DNA of 24,699 bases, taken from the IMG/VR virus record IMGVR_UViG_3300042691_051895, positions 1-24,699 of that record. One strand, written 5' to 3'. The translations under genes were made by a program, and so were the position numbers. Below are positions 14,572 through 17,010 of this stretch, piece after piece (the stretch's first letter is position 1; every line of letters begins with the position of its first letter). Under the pieces are notes generated by a model. That model worked only from the letters and a program-made list of their open reading frames with translations, was not told the DNA's origin and ran no database searches. This stretch comes from a virus.

Positions 14572-15000
14572 ATGCCTTATAAAACGCGGTTTTATCCAAA
14601 AAATCCATCAAAATATGTAGGCGACCCAAATAAGATAATATGTAGATCTCTTTGGGAGAGAAAATTCTGTAAATATTTGGACGAAAACCAATCAATACTG
14701 AGATGGGCGAGCGAAGAATTGGCAGTCCCATACCTGTGCCCGGTCAAAAAGAGAGTTTGTATGTATTACCCCGACTTTCTATTTGAAAGCAATGAAAATG
14801 GGGAAGTGATGACTTATATCGTGGAGATAAAGCCAAAGAAGCAAACAAAGCCACCTGAAAACAAAAAGAAAAGAAGTTACGCCATGGAAATGGCGACTTA
14901 CATGATAAATAATTCTAAATGGGAATCTGCGACTCGTCTTTGTGATGAAAATGGCTGGAAGTTCAAAATTCTCACCGAAGAGGATCTTCACATAAAATGA
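14572..15000 (+). CDS. 4: Head completion/DNA-end nuclease gp4-like (PD-(D/E)xK fold)
   Basis: 142 aa, close to T4 gp4 (150 aa), which completes DNA-filled heads and is predicted to be an endonuclease. The ATG at 14572 is chosen instead of an upstream in-frame ATG at 14461 because homology-like sequence starts here (MPYKTRFYPKNPSKYVGDPNKI) and the longer form would run through the opposite gene. Motif: E29 in SLWERKF (helix A acid), then Y-Y-P-D with D68, then VEIK with E85 and K87, giving the E...PD...ExK active site for a metal-dependent nuclease. The stop overlaps the next start (ATGA at 14997-15000). The SD is weak. Confidence is high in the fold and good in the gp4 identity. Confidence 0.88.
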   Translation: MPYKTRFYPKNPSKYVGDPNKIICRSLWERKFCKYLDENQSILRWASEELAVPYLCPVKKRVCMYYPDFLFESNENGEVMTYIVEIKPKKQTKPPENKKKRSYAMEMATYMINNSKWESATRLCDENGWKFKILTEEDLHIK

Positions 15001-15566
15001 GTCAAATTCAAAACGTAATCGACTATATCGGAAAAATGGGAGTGCAAGACAGTTCCCGTTATGCTGTCGATTTTGATGGGGTTTATTATTCAGAATCAAT
15101 AGTTTCCCTTGATGCTCCCGGTCCAGAATATGAGTTCCTGAACATCAATTACTGGCAAGGAAATCCATATTTCAGAATGCCAATTGGACTAAAATTTAAG
15201 GAAGCATTGATCGTTGAAATGTTAGTCCCGGAAGTAAATACCCCAAATAGTCAGGGATACAATAATTTCATGAATAAATTGACAGATTACACAAAAGCAA
15301 ACTTTACAGTCCCCTCTTCCGGTGTTTACTTTGATAACAGTAACTCGACTCCCGAATTGAGCTCATTTTCTTGGAATAGAACAAATAAAGGCATGAAAAT
15401 AACTGTTACTGGGCTGGATAGGTATAATATGATCACAAAACAATATCGATACACGAATTGTTTTTTCGAAAAGATATTACCTCTCAAATTCGATGCATCT
15501 CGTCCAGAAGCACAAACAATAACAATGTCATTCTTGGTCGGAGGTATGGAAACCCCGCCGAAATAA
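14997..15566 (+). CDS. Tail-tube-like structural protein
   Basis: 189 aa, start overlapping the gp4 stop (ATGA). The sequence is beta-rich with a helix in the middle (NNFMNKLTDYTKANF, about residues 88-102) and a C-terminal strand pair of the type seen in tail-tube and tube-initiator proteins: GMKITVTGLDRYNMITKQYRYTNCFFEKILPLKFD...AQTITMSFLVGG (131-184), that is, an order of 'x-y-r-y-x-x-C-F-F-x-x-i' followed by 'a-x-t-i-x-m-x-F'. This resembles the gp19/gp54/gpV tube fold, but without alignment the exact counterpart in T4 is unclear. Its position just upstream of a chaperone-like gene with a frameshift mirrors the tube-then-chaperone order of long-tailed phages, which supports a tube role by inference. 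Confidence 0.6.
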   Translation: MSQIQNVIDYIGKMGVQDSSRYAVDFDGVYYSESIVSLDAPGPEYEFLNINYWQGNPYFRMPIGLKFKEALIVEMLVPEVNTPNSQGYNNFMNKLTDYTKANFTVPSSGVYFDNSNSTPELSSFSWNRTNKGMKITVTGLDRYNMITKQYRYTNCFFEKILPLKFDASRPEAQTITMSFLVGGMETPPK

Positions 15567-15578
15567 AAAAGGATAATC

Positions 15579-16295
15579 ATGATATCTGAAATTTTGAAAA
15601 ATTCGTTGCCATCATATGAAGTGACTCTACCGATAACAAAAAAGAAACACAAGTTTAGACCGATGACAGTGAAAGAGGAAAAAATACTTCTTCTTGCACA
15701 ACGATCCGAATCATTGCGAGAAATGGCATCGGCTATGGTCCAGATCATAAAAAACTGTTATGAGGATCTGAAAACACCCGAAAAATTGAGCATAGCAGAT
15801 GCAGAAAAGGCATTCTTGGCACTGCGTGGGAAGTCGATGGGAGAAGAGTCAACATTCACGATTAGATGCCCGGAAACCGGAGAGGTCATAAACATAAAAG
15901 TCAATCTTGAGACCTTTGATATTGAAAAGAAAAATATAAAAGATGGTAAGATAAAATTAACCGATGAAATGTTGGTCGTAGTCACTGAACCTACGATGGA
16001 ATATCTTCTTCAAAATGAAAAGTCCGAATCCGATGAAATGCGAAATCTTTTCAAGAATTGTTTCGTGGAATTACAAACTGCTGATAATGTTTACGTCAAG
16101 GATCAATTGACCGAAAAGGATCTTGATGAATTCTATGATTACATGACTCCGTTGCAGCTTAAAATGTTCTCTGATTACATAGAGTCGATACCAAGAGTCA
16201 AAAAAACAATCAAATACCACACAAAAGACGGTATTGATCGCCAGTTCTCACTATTTGGGATAGACAGTTTTTTCGGATATGCCTCAGCCACATAA
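15579..16295 (+). CDS. 26: gp26-like baseplate hub / tail-assembly chaperone-like protein (zero-frame product)
   Basis: 238 aa. The N-terminal part, LPSYEVTLPITKKKHKFRPMTVKEEKILLLA (about 10-40), is characteristic of the gp26 (T4 baseplate protein) family: a short beta hairpin 'L-P-x-x-K-K-x-x-F-R-P-M-T-V-K-E-E-K-x-L-L-x-A'. Then a helical segment (48-64), the region LSIADAEKAFLALRGKSMGEE (70-90), a beta section with RCPETGE (95-101) and an acidic C-terminal helical region. T4 gp26 works in baseplate hub assembly. AAGGA lies 7 nt before the ATG. Its last codons contain a heptamer T TTT TTC, after which the -1 frame stays open for 58 codons; the alternative product would be 290 aa. See the frameshift entries. 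Confidence 0.8.
   Translation: MISEILKNSLPSYEVTLPITKKKHKFRPMTVKEEKILLLAQRSESLREMASAMVQIIKNCYEDLKTPEKLSIADAEKAFLALRGKSMGEESTFTIRCPETGEVINIKVNLETFDIEKKNIKDGKIKLTDEMLVVVTEPTMEYLLQNEKSESDEMRNLFKNCFVELQTADNVYVKDQLTEKDLDEFYDYMTPLQLKMFSDYIESIPRVKKTIKYHTKDGIDRQFSLFGIDSFFGYASAT
16268..16274 (+). promoter_or_regulatory. Candidate -1 ribosomal slippery site T TTT TTC
   Basis: Read in the zero frame as AGT TTT TTC, the last seven bases fit the X-XXY-YYZ rule for -1 tandem slippage. The site lies 21 nt before the zero-frame stop (16293-16295) and inside the 58-nt window (16238-16295) where both frames are open. A small hairpin downstream (CTATAG 16296-16301 with CTATAG 16309-16314) is probably too weak and too far to be a classical stimulator. 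Confidence 0.6.
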
Positions 16296-16450
16296 CTATA
16301 GGTGAATTCTATAGATTAAATTTTCTCTTGACTCATGTATATAAATGGTCTCTGACGGATATAGAGAACATGATACCTTGGGAAAGAGAAGTTTATGTGG
16401 GGCAACTGAGGCAGTATTTAGAAGAGGAAAGTAGAAGGAACAGCTCATGA
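16274..16450 (+). CDS. -1 frame extension of the gp26-like gene (gp51-like/chaperone C-terminal domain)
   Basis: 58 codons after the slippery site, ending at a TGA whose first bases overlap the ATG of the next gene (ATGA at 16447-16450). The frame is open from 16238, yet contains no ATG/GTG/TTG before a TTG at 16328 without SD and an ATG at 16370 that would cut the coherent domain. The peptide (EFYRLNFLLTHVYKWSLTDI, then ENMIPWEREVYVGQLRQYL and EEE) is helical with aromatic-W-S-L followed by M-x-P-W-E-R, like the short proteins encoded after gp26 in T4-like cyanophages and the C-terminal part of frameshifted tail-assembly chaperones. Fused by -1 slippage it makes a 290-aa product with the upstream gene. 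Separate initiation is the alternative. Confidence 0.65.
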   Translation, partial: RICLSHITIGEFYRLNFLLTHVYKWSLTDIENMIPWEREVYVGQLRQYLEEESRRNSS

Positions 16451-17010
16451 ATGAACCATTCAGGACATTACCGAGACCGAGTGACTATAGAACCCAAGCA
16501 CCAAGAAGATCGCCGGGAGTGATGTCGAATTTTAGTACATTTAGACAAACGCTAAATGGAAGAGCGAATGTGCAAATGGCCGAAAAAATAGGACCAAATC
16601 CATTTAAAATGACCAATCTGGATGAAATGATTCAACAAAGCAGAAAACCAGAACCGAAAATAATGAAAAATGCTGCTATGTTGACCAGTGCTTTGGAAGA
16701 ACAACCCAGAATAACCGCAAAAACATCCACAAATTATGACTTGGGTCCCAAAGAAGTTCCTGAAATAAGCAATAAACAGCAGAACCTTTATAACATGACT
16801 TCAAAAACTATAGAAAAAAGAGAGGCTTCAAAAGAAGCCCCTCCGGTACAAACAATGGTCCAAAACCAAACTACTCCTTCACAAATGCCCGCAGGTGGGG
16901 CAGCTGGAAGGAGTAGTGGTGGTGGACGGGGACTCAGGCATCCTACCATAGATGATGCCATGTTGTCCGCCGCTATGCTGCCTCTTTGGAGGCAGAAATT
17001 TAACGGCTAA
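16447..17010 (+). CDS. Disordered virion-associated-type protein, unknown
   Basis: 187 aa, not recognised. The start ATG overlaps the stop of the -1-frame segment, so translation likely depends on ribosomes that finish that frame. The sequence is rich in Pro, Gln, Lys, Thr and Met with almost no hydrophobic core: low-complexity, probably disordered, with a Gly/Ser patch (GGAAGRSSGGGRGL, about 153-166) before a short helical C-terminus (TIDDAMLSAAMLPLWRQKF). No cysteines. Its place after the gp26-like/frameshift gene is where a tail length or assembly factor might be expected, but it is far too short and unstructured for a tape measure. A C-terminal docking peptide with a disordered spacer is a reasonable guess only. 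Its stop abuts the converging gp32 stop with no gap. Confidence 0.7.
   Translation: MNEPFRTLPRPSDYRTQAPRRSPGVMSNFSTFRQTLNGRANVQMAEKIGPNPFKMTNLDEMIQQSRKPEPKIMKNAAMLTSALEEQPRITAKTSTNYDLGPKEVPEISNKQQNLYNMTSKTIEKREASKEAPPVQTMVQNQTTPSQMPAGGAAGRSSGGGRGLRHPTIDDAMLSAAMLPLWRQKFNG

Follow-up and report, generated by a model that had tools for sequence, protein, structure and literature searches.

A conserved slippery heptamer and a predicted −1 frameshift in the gp26-type tail assembly chaperone gene of a divergent uncultured phage

Gene arrangement at the locus

The window analysed here is the whole of an IMG/VR virus record of 24,699 bases, and all features described below lie on its plus strand. A gp26-type gene (15579..16295), preceded by a Shine-Dalgarno (SD)-like AAGGA that was read directly (15569..15573), encodes in the zero frame a product of 238 aa, the short form TAC-N of a putative tail assembly chaperone (TAC). 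Near the end of the gene the codons run GAC AGT TTT TTC GGA, placing a slippery heptamer T TTT TTC (16268..16274) in the correct X XXY YYZ register, as had been claimed in a sequence-only reading of this DNA. Past the slip site the zero frame adds a short tail, GYASAT-stop (16275..16295), whose counterpart in the related locus L001 is AFASAT-stop. The stop codon TAA (16293-16295) does lie shortly downstream of the heptamer as that reading held, but begins 18 nt past it and not the 21 nt given there.

An upstream TGA (16235-16237) and the TGA at 16448-16450 bound the open stretch of the −1 frame, which begins at 16238. A ribosome entering it at the heptamer would add an extension of 58 codons plus the TGA (TAC-C, a gp51-like C-terminal domain; 16274..16450), with the peptide RICLSHITIGEFYRLNFLLTHVYKWSLTDIENMIPWEREVYVGQLRQYLEEESRRNSS encoded by codons 16274-16447, and the resulting long form TAC-NC would have 290 aa (coding join 15579..16274,16274..16450). 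The −1 frame stop overlaps the ATG of the next gene (16447, ATGA). Reading the frames bears out the 58 open codons and the overlapping start that had been reported, and also the claim that the frame has no plausible start of its own. Common start codons occur in it only within the conserved domain: a TTG and an ATG (MIPWERE...), both internal, and a GTG.

By itself, a heptamer within one window means little. In-register X XXY YYZ sites number 55 among the ∼7,500 codons of the window, TTTTTTC occurs four times, and in-window heptamer statistics are uninformative. The site stands out beyond chance because the −1 peptide has homologues and because site and register are conserved across relatives, as described below.

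A tail-tube-like gene (14997..15566) lies just upstream of the TAC gene; its syntenic counterpart in L001 matches phrog_45 (‘tail tube’, E 0.0013), and the window copy gave no family match in the profile search. A second in-register TTTTTTC falls within this gene (15461-15467, with 42 open −1 codons); it is not conserved in L001 and is probably a chance occurrence. On the downstream side, the ORF whose ATG overlaps the −1 frame stop (16447..17010) encodes 187 aa and has no family hit. Long genes follow the TAC gene in relatives, and the counterpart of this ORF has 441 aa in L001 and >1,300 aa in S-BM3. The C-terminal tails encoded by the window and L001 genes are similar (..AAMLPLWRQKFNG and ..AAVMLPIWRQGFVG, respectively).

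Family and fold assignments

Both parts of the predicted long form belong to known families. The gp26-type protein matches PF12322 (T4_baseplate) with an E-value of 2.6e-43 and 148.7 bits (cut-off 24.5), and phrog_150 with an E-value of 2.5e-42; the −1 peptide matches phrog_634 (‘baseplate hub assembly catalyst’, i.e. the gp51 family) with an E-value of 4.3e-21. When the extension is aligned with those of 31 relatives, residues F1, F18 and Y42 are invariant and L10, Y13, N17, P36, E38 and L46 nearly so; identity is 69% with L001 and 29–51% with the 30 others. The locus thus carries both features by which T4-type gp26/gp51 hub assembly chaperones are recognized, the PF12322 domain and the gp51-type C-terminal extension. 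It also has the layout of a frameshifted TAC gene, in which an in-register slippery sequence near the end of TAC-N leads into a conserved −1 ORF. The T4 proteins gp26 and gp51 appear in the literature as hub assembly chaperones, and gp51 is required yet absent from the particle (PMC3004832).

Structural comparison gives independent support. The TAC-N of the window, modelled with AlphaFold (pLDDT 90.3), matches the HK97 tail assembly chaperone 2ob9 (Z 7.2, 3.6 Å over 86 residues) and 3fgx (Z 7.2, 4.8 Å over 89 residues). These are its only matches above Z 2.5, and they cover only N-terminal residues 1–96 of TAC-N (∼90–95 residues); a Z of 7.2 is in a range where common arrangements can match, but it stands well above that of the following row, Z 2.5. 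Foldseek against the PDB returned nothing below E 0.001 for the same model, with the HK97 TAC at rank 9 (the match given Z 7.2 by the second aligner), and a sequence search of solved structures with gp26 returned chance-level hits only. On the strength of the modelled fold, gp26 is most likely a tail assembly chaperone.

Conservation of the slip site among relatives

Relatives were collected by two seeded scans of viral contigs, together with named phages, yielding 166 loci with both parts, of which 145 are distinct. The gp51-like frame is −1 relative to gp26 in all 166, with an in-register TTTTTTN at the junction. Among the distinct loci the heptamer is TTTTTTC in 142, TTTTTTT in two and TTTTTTA in one; the rare variants are found in L058, L059 and L064. 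The encoded proteins are just 25–59% identical to those of the window, and the slip site is kept nonetheless. In the closest relatives (L001–L003) gp26 is 57% identical and the codons are the same AGT TTT TTC, while the nearest deposited isolates are only ∼33% identical to the window's phage, which belongs to a divergent, uncultured lineage. The slip site is also present in 8/8 further distant relatives checked. Direct reading showed the identical arrangement in Vibrio phages D479, 1.081.O and ValKK3, Stenotrophomonas phage DLP6, Pseudomonas phage pf16, Pelagibacter phage HTVC008M, Methylophilales phage Melnitz-1 and Aeromonas phage phiAS5.

An alignment of 55 gp26 genes gives the three slip codons third-base conservation scores of 1.00, 1.00 and 0.98, ranks 1–3 of the gene, against a median of 0.58 among conserved residues. 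The residue preceding Phe-Phe is conserved in only 65% of these genes and its codon may be AGT, TCT, GAT, GCT, AAT or GGT, always with T as third base; of the 173 Phe-Phe pairs at other places in these genes, just three use TTT TTC. Fisher p-values treat related sequences as independent and are too small for that reason, but the third-base ranking does not rest on them.

The sequence-only reading had proposed that a real frameshift should show conservation of the heptamer and of the 0/−1 register, and that loss of the heptamer in close relatives would speak against one; TTTTTTN is in register in all 145 distinct loci, and no such loss was seen. It erred in expecting a gp26 frameshift fusion to be unusual for T4-type phages, since the slip site occurs in all non-T-even relatives examined. 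As judged from these sequences, the putative frameshift arrangement is the rule among the examined relatives outside the T-even group, and its spread suggests that the frameshifted single gene is ancestral.

The −1 frame as extension or separate gene

The −1 frame might be a separate small gene for gp51, translated either from a start codon of its own or through re-initiation coupled to termination of gp26. Many relatives could be taken this way: an ATG occurs in the −1 frame near the junction in 84/145 loci, and GenBank records enter gp51 as its own CDS. However, where present this ATG is usually a few codons past the slip site with no obvious SD, seven loci have GTG or TTG alone, and 54 have no ATG, GTG or TTG between the upstream stop and domain residue 13, hence no usable start ahead of the conserved core; P-SSM7 is one of the loci lacking an ATG. 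Homologues with their own ATG and SD had been named as evidence against frameshifting; the ATG half of that is common, but more than a third of loci lack any of the three codons and the slip site is in all. Moreover, homology reaches right to the slip site, a separate gene would give no need to keep that site, and T4 gp51 bears the extension on a full TAC-N domain. We regard a separate gene as very improbable.

The database entries themselves vary. The annotated gp51 CDSs of P-SSM7 and Vibrio D479 start inside the domain (∼30 codons), which also argues against a separate gene, and in S-BM3 gp51 is unannotated in the record, yet the −1 frame is there. The public gp51 CDSs L005:4789-4884, L169:2600-2692 and L173:3223-3360 begin at ATGs lying within the conserved domain; each is probably a piece of the −1 frame extension that has been mis-annotated. 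The separate cyanophage ORF mentioned in the sequence-only reading is best read as annotation of the −1 frame, with records placing the start at whichever ATG occurs.

Possible frameshift stimulators

Cyanophage relatives often have an SD-like GGAGGG or GAGGG ∼9–10 nt upstream of the heptamer, and the Glu codon creating this element is GAG in 88/129 cases at the site versus 911/3,231 elsewhere. Segments of 60 nt downstream of the heptamer have more structure than controls do (mean z −1.19 versus −0.21 and −0.41). No single consensus structure was found for all loci, only local hairpins that differ by clade, and these are possibly lineage-specific frameshift stimulators; L065 and L105 have a long stem 5–6 nt downstream. 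Strong hairpins starting 5–6 nt past TTTTTTC were seen in one cyanophage clade (L065, L105, L114 and similar loci), with other stems in other clades.

The window itself shows no clear SD-like motif upstream of the heptamer (TTT GGG ATA GAC AGT) and no significant RNA structure downstream, which counts against the frameshift reading. A possible weak hairpin 21 nt downstream (16296..16314) reaches z −1.7 at best, which is not significant, and is absent in L001, making its function doubtful. Slip strength might be tuned by lineage, most cyanophage relatives adding an SD-like element and some clades a downstream hairpin, while the window's lineage would use the bare heptamer or another stimulator; we offer this tentatively, as a suggestion somewhat more apt to fail than to hold. 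If true, the TAC-N:TAC-NC ratio would be under lineage-specific selection.

These elements bear on a second alternative, in which RNA polymerase slips on the six-T run to give mRNAs with inserted or deleted bases, so that the fusion is transcriptional and not ribosomal. Homopolymer runs can cause polymerase slippage, and the outcome in amino acids could look similar, but a run of six T's is short for such an event. Ribosomal slippage fits both the codon register, strictly X XXY YYZ, and the relatives' upstream SD-like elements and lineage-specific downstream stems, leaving the transcriptional route only a slim chance of being correct. Least credible, with next to no probability, is that a Phe-Phe dipeptide happens to have produced the heptamer and that the −1 ORF is decayed: common as in-register heptamers are in the window, conservation of site and register contradicts this, as does the identity of the −1 peptide to its counterparts in L001 and the 30 other relatives.

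Proposed mechanism and significance

We conclude that the locus is very probably one TAC gene with two readings, TAC-N and, via −1 frameshifting, TAC-NC. The programmed frameshift proposed in the sequence-only reading is supported by the conserved heptamer and register, the many relatives in which a separate ORF would have no start, and the TAC-like fold. Most ribosomes would terminate at 16295 to give the short form, while a minority would shift one base backwards at T TTT TTC and read on in the −1 frame as far as 16450, producing a long form that bears the extra 58-residue domain, homologous to the T4 gp51 C-terminus. The lambda mechanism is the best model for what follows, because gp26 looks like a tail assembly chaperone. 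If the two forms act as lambda gpG and gpGT do, the tape-measure protein would be coated by many copies of TAC-N and few of TAC-NC, the extra domain of TAC-NC would recruit tube or hub subunits, and both forms would be absent from the virion. The analysis shows an in-register slip site, conserved in relatives, together with homology for both domains and a TAC-like fold; in vivo slippage, its efficiency or ratio and the binding partners are inferred.

This reading would correct a common annotation error, whereby records of cyanophages and Vibrio phages call gp51 as a separate, truncated gene. It would also connect gp26 and gp51, T4 proteins that have long been puzzling, with a single frameshifted chaperone gene of relatives. 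The slip site, very clean and deeply conserved, lends itself to tests of how the short:long ratio controls contractile-tail assembly.

Comparison with known systems

The E. coli dnaX frameshift has an SD-like stimulator upstream of its slip heptamer, resembling the element ∼10 nt upstream in relatives, but it uses another heptamer and serves an unrelated function, and the window is without a clear element of this kind. Lambda slips on G GGA AAG, a different sequence, and, with a downstream gene of only 187 aa, the tape-measure gene of the window's phage is apparently not adjacent to the TAC gene, unlike in the lambda layout, a point against the proposed reading. The likeness is a −1 frameshift near the end of the TAC gene, which in lambda yields a minority long form, gpGT (PMC5009743). 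The G/GT comparison made in the sequence-only reading gains support from the conserved slip site and the TAC-like fold.

In T4 both gp26 and gp51 match PF12322, and gp51 runs on into the phrog_634/phrog_150 extension. Unlike in the window, genes 26 and 51 sit next to each other on opposite strands in divergent orientation, and the corresponding codons, GAG TTC TTT and GTG TTT AAG, are not slippery. T4 is thus the exception, with the short (gp26) and long (gp51) forms as two paralogous genes. Vladimirov and colleagues reportedly found frameshifting conserved in several T4-like groups, with T4 having 26 and 51 as distinct genes.

TAC-gene frameshifting in T4-like phages has been published (Vladimirov, Gautam and Davidson 2022, Virology 566:9, doi 10.1016/j.virol.2021.11.003, as cited in passages of PMC10885494 and PMC12846349). 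Citing that study, one such passage describes poly-T slip sequences as known from the TAC-N genes of T4-like phages (PMC12846349), and another says that some T4-like phages instead carry a short gene and a fused long gene (PMC10885494). As far as these passages describe them, the published genes share with the window a gp26-type TAC-N with a C-terminal extension, short and long forms and a poly-T slip signal. The phenomenon is therefore already known; what differs, and is new here, is its probable occurrence in a divergent uncultured lineage.
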